Source: a virus
Direction: 5' to 3' (one strand)
Virus record (IMG/VR): IMGVR_UViG_3300045135_002313
Coordinates: 1-36,188 of that record
DNA length: 36,188 nt
Below are positions 23,491-30,471 of this stretch, piece by piece. Position 1 is the first letter of the stretch, and each line of letters begins with the position of its first letter. Position numbers and translations under genes: made by a program. The notes below the pieces were generated by a model. It did no database searches. It saw only the letters and a program-made list of their open reading frames with translations, and was not told the origin of the DNA.

Positions 23491-24450
23491 ATGGATGTAG
23501 TTACAATTTGGATGGCACTAGGATTCCTCTTAGCCGCCTATTCTGTTATAGCAAACGATAGCGTTCAAACTCTTGGAACTTGGATTGCGTCGAACAATGA
23601 ACGATTCCACTGGACGATTTTATGGACCGCCGCTTCGGCGGTTTTGCTTTGGGCACTATGGTTCGGTTGGTATATCAACGGAGGTGACATTTCATATGGT
23701 CGCCTAACTAAAATACCTTTCCAAGAAATACAGTGGTATCATGCAGCTGCTCCCGCAGTGCTACTACTACTCACTAGAATTGGTGTTCCTGTTTCAACAT
23801 CGTTTCTTGTGCTTTCAGCCTTCGCATCAACCTTTGTGCTAGAAAAGATGTTGATGAAATCTATCATGGGATATGCTGTAGCAGCTGTCGCTGCCTACGC
23901 ACTCTGGCATATCATTTCAAGAATCTTAGACGAAAAGAAACCAATTGGAGATCACTGGTCACGTCCATACTGGCGCGTAGCACAGTGGGGTACAACTGGT
24001 CTGCTTTGGTGGACTTGGTTATCACATGATATGGCTAACATTGCAGTATTCCTTCCTAGACAAGTTCCGTGGGACTTAATGATTGTAATTTCTGTAGTCT
24101 TCGTAGCAGGTCTTGGATGGATGTTTAGTGAGCGAGGAGGTAAAATTCAAAATATTGTATTAGAAAAATCTACAACACGATATATTCGTTCTGCGTGTTT
24201 AATTGATTTTGCATATTTTGTTATTCTATATTTCTTCAAAGAACTTAACTCAATACCAATGTCTACAACTTGGGTTTTCGTGGGTCTACTTACAGGACGA
24301 GAACTAGCGATTGCCGCCGTTCGTAATACCAAAATGAAACAAGTATTTCCTCTTGTCACTCGTGATTTTATGAAGATGATGATTGGATTAGGAGCTTCGG
24401 TCGGTATTGTTCTGTTAATTCATTATGTAATAGTACCGAACGGGTACTAA
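23491..24450 (+). CDS. PiT-like inorganic phosphate transporter (divergent)
   Basis: This is a 319-residue integral membrane protein with roughly 8-10 hydrophobic helices. Its two halves echo each other as in the PiT family. The first half has SVIANDSVQTLGTWIASN (N22-D23) and GVPVSTSF (100-104). The second has LSHDMANIAVFLPR (H179-D180...N183) and SIPMSTTWVF (255-262). The repeated (N/H)D...N/G and P-(V/M)-ST motifs are the signatures of PiT sodium- or proton-coupled phosphate carriers. The family is usually 400-500 residues, so this is a compact form lacking the long central loop. It may raise host phosphate uptake, a common limit for phage DNA synthesis at sea. Family assignment is from motif symmetry only; function is inferred. 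Confidence 0.65.
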   Translation: MDVVTIWMALGFLLAAYSVIANDSVQTLGTWIASNNERFHWTILWTAASAVLLWALWFGWYINGGDISYGRLTKIPFQEIQWYHAAAPAVLLLLTRIGVPVSTSFLVLSAFASTFVLEKMLMKSIMGYAVAAVAAYALWHIISRILDEKKPIGDHWSRPYWRVAQWGTTGLLWWTWLSHDMANIAVFLPRQVPWDLMIVISVVFVAGLGWMFSERGGKIQNIVLEKSTTRYIRSACLIDFAYFVILYFFKELNSIPMSTTWVFVGLLTGRELAIAAVRNTKMKQVFPLVTRDFMKMMIGLGASVGIVLLIHYVIVPNGY

Positions 24451-24525: not shown

Positions 24526-25368
24526 ATGAATTTAGAACAAGTCAAACGCATGAGGAAATATATGCTAGAGAACTTTACGTTTGTTTCTTGGCCTCCTTTT
24601 GCAATGGGAAATTGTGTTATGAGAATTATTCAAGCACATACAGAAGATTACTATTGGACGCCAAAATATAATGTATGGGAACATGATCCTTATATTACCT
24701 CTCCTCTTGATTATCCAGAAACTCAAGACTTTCAAGAAACACTAAACGGAAGATTTTGGACAACAGTACATACTAGTACACTTTTTCCCGCAGGTATTAA
24801 AATTTGGGAACATGAAGCGTTACTAGACATATTTAATGAAACAGTAGCTTGGGAGAAAGATAAAACACTACCAACTCCTGATCATGTTGTAGATTTAGAA
24901 GCACTACACGCAACTTACATAAAAAAAGATAAGAAATCTGTAGAAGCTGCAGCACATAACCCTCCTCATATTTGGTTACAAGATTATCCTGATACAAAAA
25001 AACTAGTTAACCTATACTATGAAAAAGATAATCACAATATAACTGATTTACCTACAAGACCTCTAACTGATCGGATTACTACTCAATGGAGTGAAAACTT
25101 AGTAGAAGACGAAAGGGTTTTAAACATATCTCTTAATATGTTTTTTAGCCCTGATTGGTATGAATACGAGTCTGAGTTTGATAGGCTCTCTAAATTTTTA
25201 AATTTTACTTATCCTAGAAAAAAAGCAGTAAGAGCCTATATGCATTACTATAAAGAAAGAATAAAACTATACAATGACAGAGACACAGAAGAAAAACGTC
25301 AAAATAGGGGGTCAAGTTTCGGAAACCTTGGAAAGCGACTACTTCAAAACAACGTGGAAAACAACTGA
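24526..25368 (+). CDS. Protein of unknown function, possibly sulfotransferase-like
   Basis: This is a 280-residue soluble, aromatic-rich protein. The start is GFVSWPP-like: FTFVSWPPFAMGNCVMRII at residues 17-35, loosely resembling the strand-loop-helix that binds PAPS in sulfotransferases, though the loop lacks the usual Lys/Arg-Ser/Thr. A segment LNISLNMFFSPDWYEYESEF near residue 200 resembles regions seen in phage sulfotransferase-like proteins, including the one at 28140. I cannot confirm the family. It is the first gene after the strong 24463 promoter. Its last 95 bases overlap the methyltransferase gene in another frame, and its C-terminus there is rich in Arg, Asn and Glu. Confidence 0.5.
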   Translation: MNLEQVKRMRKYMLENFTFVSWPPFAMGNCVMRIIQAHTEDYYWTPKYNVWEHDPYITSPLDYPETQDFQETLNGRFWTTVHTSTLFPAGIKIWEHEALLDIFNETVAWEKDKTLPTPDHVVDLEALHATYIKKDKKSVEAAAHNPPHIWLQDYPDTKKLVNLYYEKDNHNITDLPTRPLTDRITTQWSENLVEDERVLNISLNMFFSPDWYEYESEFDRLSKFLNFTYPRKKAVRAYMHYYKERIKLYNDRDTEEKRQNRGSSFGNLGKRLLQNNVENN

Positions 25369-25819
25369 AGAAGACCCTCAAGTTATAGAAGCTGTAAGAT
25401 CATCTAAAAATACATTAGATGTAGGCTGTGGACATAATCAATACAAAAAGTATTCTAAAACTTCTTTTTGGGGTATTGATTTATCTTGTGAAGAAGCAGA
25501 TCAAATTATTGATATTATCGACTTTAAAACAAAGTCAAGATTTGATTTAATTATTTGTTATGGTTCTATCAATTTTTATTCTATACAATGGATTGAAGAT
25601 AGATTGAGACATATAGTCTCATTACTTGATACTACTGGAAAAATAATGATGAAAGTAAATCCAGGGTATCCTCATGTAGATGGTACAGTATTAGACTGGT
25701 ATGATAAATGGACTATCTCACTGGCAAAACACTACGGAAAAGTTTTTAACCTAGAAATAACTAATATCAGGGAAGCAGCAAACGGAAGGTTTAAATTCGA
25801 CTACATAAAACATGATTGA
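25274..25819 (+). CDS. Class I SAM-dependent methyltransferase
   Basis: This 181-residue protein has the methyltransferase core. TLDVGCGHN (near residues 47-55) is the SAM-binding motif I, SFWGIDLS is motif II, RFDLIICYGSINF is motif IV, and LLDTTGKIMMKVNPG is the following turn and strand. The substrate is unknown; it lacks the NPPY/DPPY motif of most DNA amino-methyltransferases, favouring a small molecule or protein. The ATG at 25274 gives a 95-base overlap with the upstream gene. A later non-ATG start is possible because the first 20 residues are not conserved-looking. It overlaps the TctA start by eight bases, so it belongs to the transporter unit. Confidence 0.8.
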   Translation: MTETQKKNVKIGGQVSETLESDYFKTTWKTTEEDPQVIEAVRSSKNTLDVGCGHNQYKKYSKTSFWGIDLSCEEADQIIDIIDFKTKSRFDLIICYGSINFYSIQWIEDRLRHIVSLLDTTGKIMMKVNPGYPHVDGTVLDWYDKWTISLAKHYGKVFNLEITNIREAANGRFKFDYIKHD

Positions 25820-27137
25820 ACTCATAGCAGGGGTTTTATACGGGCTAGTAGTAGGACTCATACCTACTGCTGGTGCTACAACAGGACTAATAATTCTATT
25901 TAGTTTTCTATCTATATTTCCAGACCCGTACTCAGCACTAATATTTATTATGGCAGTTGTAGCAGCATCTACAACTGCTGATACGTTTTCTAGTGTTCTA
26001 CTAGGAATACCAGGAGCTAACTCATCAGCAGCTACTATTCAAGATGGTTATCCTTTAGCACAGAGAGGAAAAGCTAGTCTAGCTCTTTCTTCTGCTATAA
26101 CTTCTTCAACTTTAAACGGGCTAATATGGGGAGCACTGGTTTTCTGTTTTATCAAACAGTTAGATTTTGTTTATCTATATGTAGGCACTCTAGAGCTTTG
26201 GATTATTAATCTAGTGGCTTTTTTATGTGTAATTTTTGTACTTGGCAAAAAATGGTATCTAGGGGTTATAGGGTTGGCATTAGGAATAGTTTTTGCGCTC
26301 GTAGGCACTAACCCTGTAACTAATGCAGCGAGGCTAACTTTTAGCTGGGAATATTTAAAAGATGGACTACAATTGATGCCTGTAATAGCAGGAATATTTG
26401 CTATACCAGAAATCTATGAAGCTTTGATAGGAAACAAAAAACCATATAAAAAAACTAGTAAGTCTTACACAAAACTGGGAATCTATTCTGTTTTTAAGCA
26501 CTGGTGGATATCTATTAAAGGAGGAATATTCGGTGCAATTATAGGATTTCTACCAGGACTAGGAGGAGCAGTCGCAGATTGGATAGCATATGGACAAACA
26601 GTAGCTACAGTTAAAAAACCAATAATACCTTTCGGTAAGGGGAACATCAGAGGAGTGATCGGATGTGAAGGAGCTAATAACTCTCAAAAAGCAACGTCAA
26701 TGATTACCACAGTATTATTTGGAATTCCAGGTGCTCCCTTTGCAGCTATTGTTTTAGCTCTTTTAATGTATTTAAATATAGAGTTAGGGGACCCTTCTAT
26801 TTTTGAAGACCAGCAACTTTTTGACTCTATGCTTTTAGGATTTATAGGAGGCACACTACTTGTAGCTATTATTTTGTTGCTATTTCTTAGTAAAATATGT
26901 TATATTACTAGAGTACCATATCATTACTATTTTCCAATATTACTAATATTAATAGTATGGAGTTGTGTCCAATATACAGGAGGATGGGAAGACTATATAG
27001 TATTCTTAATCTTTTCTGTAATTGGAATTATTATTCATAAACTAAACATATCAAAACCAGCAATCATAATTGGTTTTATTTTATTTGAAAGGTTTGAACT
27101 GCTATCGGTTCAATTGTTAACGAGGTATATAATATGA
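25812..27137 (+). CDS. TctA-like large subunit of a tripartite tricarboxylate (TTT) transporter
   Basis: This is a 441-residue membrane protein with about eleven or twelve helices and the two TctA signature repeats. The first is GLVVGLIPTAGATTGL, then LLGIPGANSSAATIQDGYPLA. The second is GAIIGFLPGLGGAVADWIAYG, then EGANNSQKATSMI and LFGIPGAPFAAIVLALL. TctA forms the pathway for citrate-type acids driven by ion gradients. It is a little shorter than bacterial TctA (about 500 residues), missing part of the N-terminus. The small subunit TctB, normally required, is not encoded nearby. It overlaps the binding-protein gene by four bases, so the pair is co-translated and probably works together, perhaps with a host TctB. 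Confidence 0.9.
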   Translation: MIELIAGVLYGLVVGLIPTAGATTGLIILFSFLSIFPDPYSALIFIMAVVAASTTADTFSSVLLGIPGANSSAATIQDGYPLAQRGKASLALSSAITSSTLNGLIWGALVFCFIKQLDFVYLYVGTLELWIINLVAFLCVIFVLGKKWYLGVIGLALGIVFALVGTNPVTNAARLTFSWEYLKDGLQLMPVIAGIFAIPEIYEALIGNKKPYKKTSKSYTKLGIYSVFKHWWISIKGGIFGAIIGFLPGLGGAVADWIAYGQTVATVKKPIIPFGKGNIRGVIGCEGANNSQKATSMITTVLFGIPGAPFAAIVLALLMYLNIELGDPSIFEDQQLFDSMLLGFIGGTLLVAIILLLFLSKICYITRVPYHYYFPILLILIVWSCVQYTGGWEDYIVFLIFSVIGIIIHKLNISKPAIIIGFILFERFELLSVQLLTRYII

Positions 27138-28159
27138 AAAAACTACTACTACTGGCTGGAGTAATTCTAGCATTTTCTTCAACAGCAGCTTTAGCTGACT
27201 ACACGATGATTATTCCACAAAAACCTGGAGCAGGTACGTCTCAATGGGCTTATATCATTTCTAAACACTTAGAGAAGCATCTTGGAGAAAAAATTAAACT
27301 AAAACATATCCCCGGGGCTAGAGACATACCGGGATTCAATAAGTTTCACAATGATTTACGATTTGATGAAAAAACAATCATGGTTTCTCACGGTGGGAAC
27401 GGTGTATCTTATTTAACAGAAAAAGTAGATTATAATTATTTAGATTATGACCCCATTGGAGGTATGAATCTAACTATTGTGATGGGAAGTAATAATCTAA
27501 AAGATAAAGCAATTTTTGCAGGAGGTAGTGGAAGTGTACCTGATGTCATGGCACTTACTTTATATATGTGCGGTAACCTAACATCTCTATCTGCGTATAA
27601 AGCATGTTTTAATGAAAAGATTACTTTTGTAAAAGGGATGTCAGGAAGTGAAAGAAGAATGGCATACAAAAGAAGAGAACTAAATGTTACAAGAGAAAAT
27701 CCTGCAGCATATAAAAAACATTCCCAAAAAGCGGGAAAAGTTTTATTTACACATGGCATAACTGACCCTAGTACCTTTAGAATTGTTGACGATCCTAATC
27801 ATTCAAACTTATCTTTTAGTAAAGTATTTAAAAATAAATGGGGAGAAGAACCAAGAGGAAAGCTTTATTATTCTTATGTACTAGTAAAGTCCTATAGAGA
27901 TACTCTGCAGAAAGCTTTGTGGATGAATAAGAATAACCCTAACACTCCTAAAGTAAGAAAAGCTTTAGAATCAATGCTACAAGATCCAGAAGCGATTAAA
28001 GATATTGAGAAAAAAGTTGGTAAGTATAGTTGGTGGAAAGGCGAAGAATTAGTAGATGTAGTAAAAAAACTAGATAAAGCGACAATTAGATCAACTTTAC
28101 AAACACTGATTTATTGGCAAAAAGAAGTGCTAGGATATAATGCTGTTCTTAAAAGATAA
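27134..28159 (+). CDS. TctC-like periplasmic binding protein
   Basis: This is a 341-residue secreted protein. A signal peptide MKKLLLLAGVILAFSSTAALA is followed by a likely cleavage after A21 (A-L-A). The mature start DYTMIIPQKPGAGTSQWAYI resembles the TctC/Bug-family pattern PxxPGGxxD with KxxPGAxxxxG following (LKHIPGARDIPGFNKF). The binding loops differ from typical Bug proteins, so the ligand may not be citrate. It sits in an ATGA overlap after TctA. A phage-borne binding protein would load the host periplasm to raise uptake of a specific compound, as proposed for PstS in cyanophages. Ligand and partner are inferred. Confidence 0.82.
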   Translation: MKKLLLLAGVILAFSSTAALADYTMIIPQKPGAGTSQWAYIISKHLEKHLGEKIKLKHIPGARDIPGFNKFHNDLRFDEKTIMVSHGGNGVSYLTEKVDYNYLDYDPIGGMNLTIVMGSNNLKDKAIFAGGSGSVPDVMALTLYMCGNLTSLSAYKACFNEKITFVKGMSGSERRMAYKRRELNVTRENPAAYKKHSQKAGKVLFTHGITDPSTFRIVDDPNHSNLSFSKVFKNKWGEEPRGKLYYSYVLVKSYRDTLQKALWMNKNNPNTPKVRKALESMLQDPEAIKDIEKKVGKYSWWKGEELVDVVKKLDKATIRSTLQTLIYWQKEVLGYNAVLKR

Positions 28160-28691
28160 TTTACCAGAGAGAATATTTTTTACAGGAGTTCCAGGAAGTA
28201 GATGGAGTGGTATTGCTCAAGAGATAGAAAAAGATCAAAGAATTGATATTTCCGATAGAACTCCAGAGAGAACCTACAATCACCATAATTATAGTGGACA
28301 TGAAGGAGTATACTTTGGAACAGGTATGGAGTTTGAGGCTTCTCTAAACAAAGAACACTTAGATACCCCTTATTCTGGGACAGGATGTAAATTACACAAA
28401 AGCCATGAGTGGGCTTATCTATTAGATGAAATTACCTCTCGTTTCCCTAACGATTGGATTATTTTAGTTTATAGAAATAACCAAGACAGTTTTAATTGGT
28501 GGAAAGAGGCAGGAGGATGGAATATAAAATATCCTAACTATGACTACTACGAAAATGACGATACAATGCAGTATCATATTAAAAGTATGAATGATCACAT
28601 TTTAGAGTTTAGCCAAAAGCATAAATTAAACTGGGAACAACACAAACTATATAAAGACATATTCATCACTAAATACAAGCAAAAGGTATAA
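28140..28691 (+). CDS. P-loop protein, possibly sulfotransferase-like
   Basis: This is a 183-residue soluble protein. The N-terminus RIFFTGVPGSRWSGIAQEI (residues 11-29) is a hydrophobic strand, a glycine/serine loop and a helix, close to the PAPS-binding loop of sulfotransferases. A later strand DWIILVYRNNQDSFNWWKEAGG could be the second PAPS contact (arginine and serine). The ATG overlaps the TctC stop by 20 bases, with AGGA upstream, so it belongs to the transporter unit. Sulfotransferase-like genes are common in marine phages. Catalytic activity cannot be judged. Confidence 0.55.
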   Translation: MLFLKDNLPERIFFTGVPGSRWSGIAQEIEKDQRIDISDRTPERTYNHHNYSGHEGVYFGTGMEFEASLNKEHLDTPYSGTGCKLHKSHEWAYLLDEITSRFPNDWIILVYRNNQDSFNWWKEAGGWNIKYPNYDYYENDDTMQYHIKSMNDHILEFSQKHKLNWEQHKLYKDIFITKYKQKV

Positions 28692-28697
28692 AATAAA

Positions 28698-29666
28698 ATG
28701 AAAATTCTACATAGTGCCGACTGGCACATTAATTTACATAAGAAGAAAGTTCCTGCAGAATGGAGTGCTAATCGTTTTAGACTATTCTTTGAAGAACTTC
28801 ACAAATTAGAAAAAGATCATGATGTTCATTTCTTGTCTGGGGACATCTTTGATAGAAAACCAGAACCAGACGAAATTTGTTTATTTTTAAGGTATATAAA
28901 TGCAGCTAAAATCCCAACATATATTATCCCAGGAAACCACGAAGCGACTAGAAAGGGCGAGACATTCCTTGAGCATTTTCACGAACAGCACGCTATTACG
29001 AATTCAAATGTGGTTCTTATTACAAAAAATCAAAAGAAAGAAGTTAATGGGCAGACTGTCTATTTCTTCCCGTATGGTGAAATGCAAAAAGACAATCTTA
29101 TGGCACATACGGGGAATGAAATTCTGGTGGCCCATGTTAGAGGAGAAGTACCGCCGCACATCACCGCTGAGTACGATTTTGAAAAGTTTCGTCCCTGGAA
29201 ACTCATACTTCTCGGTGACATACACTTTGCTCATCGTTACATGGATTACCCTTGCTGGTATAGTGGTTCTCCAATGAATGTGAGTTTTGATAGGGATGAC
29301 TCTAGAGACTACGGGGTTAACTCTATTGACTTTAGATCTATTGATGACTATGAAGTATCTTTTCTACCCTTAAAACTTCCAAAACTAATAAGAAAAACTT
29401 TACAAGTAGGAGAAGATATGGTTCCCGATGATTTTAATCATGTAATCTATGAAGTAACTGGATCAGTAGATCAACTTGCAAAAGTACAAAACTCAGAGCT
29501 TTTAGATAAAAAGATAGCTCTTAAGCCAACAGAAAATTCAAAACTAGACTTAAAAAATATGAACCTAATTGAAGAACTTAGAGCCTATTTAGAATATACA
29601 AAGATATCTAACATAGATGAGATAGTAAAAGACTTTCAAGATTTAAATGTAGATGCTGGAAATTAA
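28698..29666 (+). CDS. SbcD/Mre11-like nuclease subunit (T4 gp47-like)
   Basis: This is a 322-residue calcineurin-type phosphoesterase. Motifs in order are SADWHIN (residues 6-12), LSGDIFDRK, PGNHEATRKGE, VAHVRGE and LLGDIHFAHR, supplying the two-manganese site of Mre11-type nucleases. With SbcC it trims and bridges DNA ends during recombination-dependent replication and host DNA degradation. It is a typical phage length. The partner SbcC gene is not adjacent: a PP-loop gene lies between, overlapping this gene by 14 bases. Confidence 0.92.
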   Translation: MKILHSADWHINLHKKKVPAEWSANRFRLFFEELHKLEKDHDVHFLSGDIFDRKPEPDEICLFLRYINAAKIPTYIIPGNHEATRKGETFLEHFHEQHAITNSNVVLITKNQKKEVNGQTVYFFPYGEMQKDNLMAHTGNEILVAHVRGEVPPHITAEYDFEKFRPWKLILLGDIHFAHRYMDYPCWYSGSPMNVSFDRDDSRDYGVNSIDFRSIDDYEVSFLPLKLPKLIRKTLQVGEDMVPDDFNHVIYEVTGSVDQLAKVQNSELLDKKIALKPTENSKLDLKNMNLIEELRAYLEYTKISNIDEIVKDFQDLNVDAGN

Positions 29667-30471
29667 TAGAGTCTACTGGGAATATGACAACGGAGACTGG
29701 TGGAGGCCGAGTCCTTACTCTACTGCCCGTGTAAACTGTCCAAAATACAAAAGATATGGACCTACAATAAGACACGATCTATTTACTCTTGTAGAAAAAT
29801 TTGTAGAAAAGTATCCTAAATATAATTACTATATTGCTATGAGTGGAGGTATAGACTCTGAAATTACTGCTGAAACTTTTTTTCAACTAGGCGTACCTTT
29901 TGAGGCGGTTAGTTTGTCGTTATTTGAAGCGCAAAATGCACATGATTTAATATATGTAAAAGCTTTCTGTGAAAAGAGAGGAATAAATTATAACTTTATA
30001 GACCTAGATATCGTAGACTTTGTTAATGTAGTAATTCCAAAAGCAGTACAGTTTGGACAGTTTACAAATTCTTTAAGTCAAGTAGCTTTAACATATCTTT
30101 TTGAATTTATGACAGAAAAAGATATACTTATATTCTCTGGGCATAATCCCGATTTTTCTAAGCTTGGCATAGGTTGGTGGGAAGACTCACCTAATTTAGT
30201 AAAGTATGCTATTAATACAGATAATAACTTTTTTACGTTCACAAGTTTAGAACCCATTTTTATGCATTATCTTTGTAACTATGACCCAAATCAGCCGGGG
30301 GATAAAGATAATACTTTTATATATAACTGCTATCCCAATCTAAAAAAGAGAACAAAACGAACTGGTTGGGAAGTATTAGGACACATTCAATTCAAATATA
30401 AAGAACTTTTAGATACACCATTATTACCGGATGGATCAAAAGGCGGACAGGTATTTTTAACATGGAAATAA
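29653..30471 (+). CDS. PP-loop ATPase inserted between SbcD and SbcC genes
   Basis: This is a 272-residue protein with PP-loop SGGIDS at residues 64-69 (YYIAMSGGIDSEITAE). It is a single-domain adenylating enzyme of the QueC/NAD synthase/asparagine synthetase-like superfamily. It has no glutaminase domain and only a few cysteines. It is not a near copy of the PP-loop protein at 17785. The first 40 residues (WEYDNGDWWRPSPYST) are aromatic. Both ends overlap recombination genes (14 and 10 bases), showing that it is translated with the SbcCD pair. Possible roles are synthesis of a modified base precursor or a nucleotide second messenger-like product; neither can be shown from sequence. Confidence 0.72.
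   Translation: MLEINRVYWEYDNGDWWRPSPYSTARVNCPKYKRYGPTIRHDLFTLVEKFVEKYPKYNYYIAMSGGIDSEITAETFFQLGVPFEAVSLSLFEAQNAHDLIYVKAFCEKRGINYNFIDLDIVDFVNVVIPKAVQFGQFTNSLSQVALTYLFEFMTEKDILIFSGHNPDFSKLGIGWWEDSPNLVKYAINTDNNFFTFTSLEPIFMHYLCNYDPNQPGDKDNTFIYNCYPNLKKRTKRTGWEVLGHIQFKYKELLDTPLLPDGSKGGQVFLTWK

Follow-up and report, generated by a model that had tools for sequence, protein, structure and literature searches.

The DNA studied here is the complete IMG/VR virus record IMGVR_UViG_3300045135_002313, a stretch of 36,188 bp that is possibly a fragment and that we refer to as the window. On its plus strand it carries two genes related to the tripartite tricarboxylate transporters (TTT), with TctCBA (TC 2.A.80; PF01970, PF07331 and PF03401) as the known system for comparison. 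The first gene (25812..27137, 441 aa) encodes a TctA-family membrane protein, and the second (27134..28159, 341 aa) a solute-binding protein (SBP) that is predicted to be secreted and that takes the TctC/Bug fold in an AlphaFold2 model; the stop of the first and the start of the second are joined in an ATGA of 4 nt (27134..27137), as read from the sequence. The original prediction for this DNA, a phage-encoded pair of TctA and a TctC-like protein in translational overlap and without TctB, is borne out by the profile searches and the structural model described below, and the pair recurs in about 380 IMG/VR contigs, where it had been proposed to look for it.

The TctA open reading frame (ORF) matches PF01970 with an E value of 1.8e-88 and 297.4 bits, the curated cut-off being 28.9, and the match spans model positions 4-422 of 423, which places the protein inside the family. 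The repeat motif of TctA has been given as G-Hy3-G-Hy3-G-Hy2-P-G-Hy-G, Hy being hydrophobic, in the transmembrane segments TM1 and TM7 (PMC5812351). The part G-x3-G-x3-G-x2-P is found twice in the window protein, and the second repeat (TM7) is canonical with P-G-L-G-G, but the tip of the first (TM1) is altered to P-T-A-G-A in place of P-G-[hydrophobic]-G, so the claim that both signature repeats are present holds for the second and only in part for the first. All 32 viral TctA sequences in our tree have P-x-A-G at the tip of repeat 1, and all 32 have PG[LIV]GG in repeat 2. The window protein is a short form without the last C-terminal helix of most viral relatives (median 479 aa), and ORFs below 450 aa make up six of the 67 near-full-length viral ones. 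The ratio of nonsynonymous to synonymous changes (dN/dS), estimated with NG86 only, between the window and the viral loci L002 and L003 is 0.061 and 0.119 for TctA and 0.106 and 0.155 for the SBP, at dS values of 1.2-1.8 that are near saturation; both genes are under purifying selection.

Judged from the sequence, the N-terminus of the SBP resembles a signal peptide (MKKLLLLAGVILAFSSTAALA/DYT). Structure prediction from a 22-sequence alignment gave an AlphaFold2 model with a mean pLDDT of 89.4, and the top 11 entries to which VIA-align matches it are Bug/TctC proteins, with Z 19.2-21.2 and a root-mean-square deviation of 3.1-4.0 over 261-272 aligned residues; the first entry outside Bug is PtxB at Z 13.1. 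The model has the type II periplasmic binding fold known from BugD, Bug27 and MatC. A profile of the SBP compared with PDB returned three Bug proteins among six rows, all below significance, the SBP has no meaningful match in NCBIfam or PHROGs, and single-sequence PDB searches with either TctA or the SBP gave nothing usable. The pincer motif of Bug/TctC proteins is P-F-x-A-G-G-x-x-D (PMC5812351). The window SBP instead has P-Q-K-P-G-A-G-T-S-Q-W at residues 28-38, and in 80 of the 81 viral copies the stretch is P-Q-x-[P/A]-G-x-G-T-[S/T]-x-W, with Q after the P, S or T at the position of Bug's D, and both the F and the D gone, in line with the departure from the usual binding loop that had been pointed out beforehand. 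This motif suggests that the ligand may be more polar, or held through side-chain hydroxyls, and the viral pair is probably an importer with its own ligand.

A single-sequence scan of viral contigs found 38 loci, and profile scans of IMG/VR found 381 contigs with the SBP and 380 with TctA, the TctA-bearing contigs reaching about 328 kb. The loci examined are the best 80 of the 381 and the best 80 of the 380. There are 82 distinct SBP loci, namely the window, 80 other viral contigs and L045, a locus from a metagenome-assembled genome (MAG), counted after removal of L001, which is the window itself, and of loci with identical binding proteins. A second MAG locus, L046, stands outside the 82, its SBP having been hidden by an antisense ORF; it entered the trees by manual addition, and near-copies at 90% identity were removed before these were built. 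TctA is present in 78 of the 82 loci, and the four without it end at a contig or locus end. Seen from the TctA side, the SBP is found in 75 of 80 loci, and four of the other five end just after TctA; L280 (2992-4955), where a viral TctA is followed by about 500 nt without an SBP, is the only exception that a contig end does not at once explain. The gene order is TctA-SBP in all but two loci, more than 80 nt and sometimes whole genes lie between the two in five, and the overlap among the 78 loci with TctA is 8 nt in 36 and 4 nt in 13. A tblastn search of 50,697 phage records gave no match to the SBP and seven to TctA, all distant with less than 32% identity.

Since the TctA and TctC families are widespread in bacteria, one could suspect that the contig is mislabelled or misassembled and that the two genes simply belong to a host. 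Against this, the window is rich in phage replication genes (PolA, a family A DNA polymerase, a DnaB-type helicase, primase, a gp32-like single-stranded DNA-binding protein, ribonucleotide reductase and SbcC/SbcD), in the viral relatives the pair has genes for baseplate hub, terminase and virion proteins nearby, and the lineage is nearly missing from cellular genomes, so that we find such an error scarcely credible. Because the window has replication genes and the relatives have structural genes next to the pair, we regard the pair as auxiliary metabolic genes, i.e. host-type metabolic genes inside a genuine viral genome.

The scan of 84,980 bacterial and archaeal species gave two loci, both in MAGs: L045, from marine bacterium B5-7 (Gammaproteobacteria in NCBI), and L046, from Omnitrophota MAG Bin_214. 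The contrast between 381 or 380 viral contigs and these two comes from degenerate patterns that were similar, not identical, and from collections of very different make-up. Searching with the SBP in 285 genomes of the phylum of L046 returned only L046's own genome at E<=1e-3, and around L045 the matches were in 7 of 369 genomes of the class and, at E<=1e-6, in 13 of 398 of the phylum. The SBP of L045 scores 529 bits and the other cellular matches at most 70 (at most 90 when whole ORFs are scored); these remote cellular relatives are real, and they speak against there being no cellular relatives but leave the case for a separate lineage untouched. Next after L045, the best-scoring cellular TctAs reach 312-355 bits, with a drop to 265 and below thereafter, and these proteins are mostly about 630-680 aa long; one of them, in G984, has 502 aa and a separate five-helix ORF after it. 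The best cellular SBP matches directly adjoin these TctAs in at least seven genomes, and the order PrpF-family gene, SBP, TctA is found in L131, L180, L181, L184 and L188; in L131, the only one so tested, the PrpF-family gene is a 4-oxalomesaconate tautomerase by NCBIfam (489 bits, cut-off 440). The C-terminal end of these TctAs has 4-6 predicted helices by a simple hydropathy count, which is not a topology predictor. By hhalign the extra part looks like TctB: it aligned with a set of 15 TctB proteins over 139 columns with a probability of 97 and an E value of 1e-10, in a single comparison whose alignment was shallow, with 14 of its 15 rows in use and several of these short from an automatic boundary cut. 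In L131 Pfam reports TctA only, and PF07331 does not recognise the TctB-like part of these fusions.

In the TctA tree, the viral sequences and the two MAG sequences form one clade (support 100/100) on a stem of 1.91, and the SBP tree has the same clade (100/100) on a stem of 2.8, joined to the SBPs of the fused TctAs at 100/99. The operons of PrpF-family gene, SBP and TctA-TctB fusion (in the phylum of G025; L131, L180-L191) are the closest of the remote cellular cousins. They share with the viral pair the adjacency of SBP and TctA, and differ in a TctA of about 650-680 aa with a TctB-like C-terminus, an adjacent PrpF-family enzyme, a pincer that is PFGVGGGTD where it was read, and the long branch that sets them off from the viral clade. 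Among the eight fused-TctA cousins in the tree, five SBPs have PFG[V/E]GGGTD, in one the pattern matched elsewhere, and two are unmatched. The group of the window with L002, L003, L048, L049 and L051 is recovered in the TctA and SBP trees alike, and the two genes have therefore travelled together. The two MAG sequences stand apart in the TctA tree, where midpoint rooting groups L046 with 14 viral sequences (97/96). The pattern is consistent with a transfer from viruses to bacteria and does not prove it, because the root is arbitrary and the MAGs are unresolved in the SBP tree.

The two MAG pairs have the clade, the motifs and the absence of an adjacent TctB in common with the viral pair, and differ from it in that their contigs were binned as bacterial and the pairs lie beside cellular genes. 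In L045 (4536-8376) the pair stands with genes of both families that flank it in the window, described below, beside cellular genes that by eye are of the Fe-S oxidoreductase type; the locus resembles an island of virus type within a gammaproteobacterium, unless it is a binning error. L046 (465-7944) has several different methyltransferases and a radical-SAM/B12-type protein, again by eye, around its pair. Speaking of the clade as marine would draw only on the title of L045 and on general context.

The TctB profile PF07331 found nothing at E<=10 in any of 33 distinct virus records, the window among them and some of them longer than 300 kb, and on both strands of the window there is no other small multi-helix ORF resembling TctB. 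Since the nearest cellular TctAs carry a fused TctB-like domain or, in the MAG pairs, none adjacent, the lack of TctB is a trait of the whole lineage and not of one phage. The reading that we favour, and that we hold to be the more probable one while well short of certain, is that the pair would be a two-component, binding-protein-dependent secondary importer that serves tailed viruses during infection, its cargo being a small and probably polar carboxylate. The exported SBP would capture the compound in the periplasm and pass it to the TctA permease, and import would be driven by an ion gradient, a TctB-type subunit of its own not being needed. The lineage would be held mainly by viruses after an old split from the cellular systems with a TctA-TctB fusion, and this divergence would have altered the tip of TctA repeat 1 and the carboxylate pincer of the SBP. 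A two-component system without TctB seems plausible because TctB is poorly conserved and archaeal TctA occurs without TctB or TctC, according to a review (PMC5812351).

Several observations weigh against this two-component reading. The SBP has no match to the Pfam TctC model PF03401 at E<=1, and a scan of 25 virus records with that model gave two sub-threshold matches, one of them inside an SBP of the viral family (12.7 bits). Since the model has the Bug/TctC fold but Pfam TctC does not match, the SBP is TctC-like by structure and not by sequence family, and the earlier placement of both proteins thus stands for TctA in an HMM search and for the SBP in its predicted structure only. The structural model of TctA is weak (pLDDT 69), and this model has no Foldseek match under 1e-3 and reaches in VIA Z 9.5 and 9.0 with a Yellow-stripe transporter and about 5-7 with the membrane parts of INDY/DASS and TRAP. 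Most virus records are fragments, so that a diverged TctB could lie elsewhere. In Comamonas TpiBA both membrane subunits are essential for uptake, according to the same review (PMC5812351), and for that reason a system without TctB might not work alone. Finally, a small hydrophobic protein (clusters 7 and 22) lies within six genes of the SBP in 23 of the 82 loci.

It could be that the pair works only with the TctB of the host or with another small membrane protein, and there are two candidates for the latter. A membrane protein of about 73 aa with DUF6552 (PF20189, E 5.5e-10) is near the SBP in 16 of the 82 loci, e.g. close downstream in L087 (2313-2528), and a 118-aa two-helix protein in seven; both could be stand-ins for TctB. 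TctB was essential in the one deletion-tested system cited in PMC5812351, and some bacterial genomes have many TctBs, such as G675 with 15 matches to PF07331. On the other side, 59 of the 82 loci, the window included, have neither small protein within six genes, and the bin of the Omnitrophota pair has no PF07331 match (the bin of L045 has three, all on contigs other than that with the pair). In the nearest cellular cousins the TctB portion forms one protein with TctA, which would make the borrowing of a separate host TctB less natural, and we consider such dependence distinctly unlikely.

Two genes on the plus strand flank the pair closely. Upstream, 25274..25819 encodes a small protein like the class I S-adenosylmethionine (SAM) methyltransferases, with sub-threshold Pfam matches to Methyltransf_23 and TehB; it overlaps TctA by 8 nt, and its true start is perhaps further downstream. 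Downstream, 28140..28691 overlaps the SBP by 20 nt and encodes a conserved protein of 183 aa that we call ST-like; its motif G-V-P-G-S-R-W-S-G is P-loop or sulfotransferase-like by eye only, and it has no match in Pfam, PHROG or NCBIfam. With profiles built from hits in the very loci counted, the methyltransferase family is present in 61 of the 82 loci and the ST-like family in 45, and the methyltransferase family supplies 30 of the 66 genes that stand immediately before TctA (position -2); beyond a distance of six genes its share is 1 of 416. Among 64 distinct loci from the TctA side, the gene directly upstream is the methyltransferase in 35 and the ST-like gene in 10. In L045 the ST-like gene was recognised by profile and the methyltransferase by alignment, and in L046 other methyltransferases lie on both sides of the pair. 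A single ORF of 369 aa in L087 matches both profiles, and a fusion is possible. The linkage suggests that the methyltransferase, ST-like and transporter genes may share a pathway, and the methyltransferase might act on the imported compound. Because the methyltransferase profile is weakly like ToxA and TehB and the ST-like profile is like nothing, no substrate can be read from these genes, and a link to the methylation of trans-aconitate is an idea only.

Glycosyltransferase and carbamoyltransferase genes are also found, together with the methyltransferase and ST-like ones, in the window and beside its relatives, and such a neighbourhood would suit a pair that acts at the cell surface, by a change in adsorption, a block to superinfection or a contribution to an envelope-modification island, and not in nutrition. 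The near-obligate pairing of permease and SBP, the glycines kept in the pincer and the purifying selection are on the contrary those of a transporter, and we find a surface role improbable. A bolder form of the importer reading would be a TctB-free TTT importer owned by viruses, diversified in tailed viruses and passed at least twice to bacteria, with a new pincer and a dedicated methyltransferase, the whole being a module that takes up and methylates a polar carboxylate which infected cells either require or have to neutralise; taken as a whole we think this doubtful, though not far-fetched.

The likeness of the viral pair to TctCBA lies in a TctA that is homologous over nearly the full model and in a secreted SBP of Bug/TctC fold encoded alongside. 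The viral pair differs in having no TctB, in an SBP outside Pfam TctC, in the pincer (P-Q-x-P-G-x-G-T-[ST]-x-W versus P-F-x-A-G-G-x-x-D) and in the tip of TctA repeat 1 (P-x-A-G versus P-G-[hydrophobic]-G). The Bug fold has been seen in phages before, in BFVD entries from uncultured Caudovirales named "PBP2_Bug_TTT" or "Bordetella uptake protein", which have 11-15% identity to the window SBP, and viruses may have acquired Bug proteins more than once. The Bug-fold entries in BFVD are A0A6J5T247, A0A6J5L7K0, A0A6J5M1T7, A0A6J5T9X7 and A0A6J5LDG7. Viral contigs of SUP05 have been listed with tctA as "protein domain hit only" (PMC4164917, and again in PMC6359870), and tricarboxylate-transport genes are on a myovirus contig from an oxygen-depleted zone (PMC8115048). 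Our searches of the open-access literature retrieved these three as the only reports with TTT genes on viral contigs, and no retrieved paper treats the pair, its lineage or the absence of TctB. The marine contigs of PMC4164917 and PMC8115048 share such genes with our loci, and in the passages concerned no SBP, pairing, lineage or absence of TctB is described. That tctA occurs on viral contigs is thus already published.

The viral transporter genes known so far mostly resemble those of hosts. In the present case viruses appear to be the main home of an entire branch of a transporter family, whose SBP is missed by the models of Pfam, PHROG and NCBIfam. The lineage is a natural test of whether TctA can function in the absence of TctB, which the TTT field has yet to settle, and its SBP could reveal a carboxylate that is worth importing for viruses.

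Two further genes on the plus strand of the window should be mentioned. The protein encoded at 23491-24450 has five helices, and L002 has a homologue upstream of its pair; the window protein had been labelled PiT-like, a label that finds no support in Pfam, NCBIfam or a PDB sequence search, none of which gave a match. The other gene, at 29653-30471 between SbcD and SbcC, gives weak NAD-synthase/QueC-like signals.

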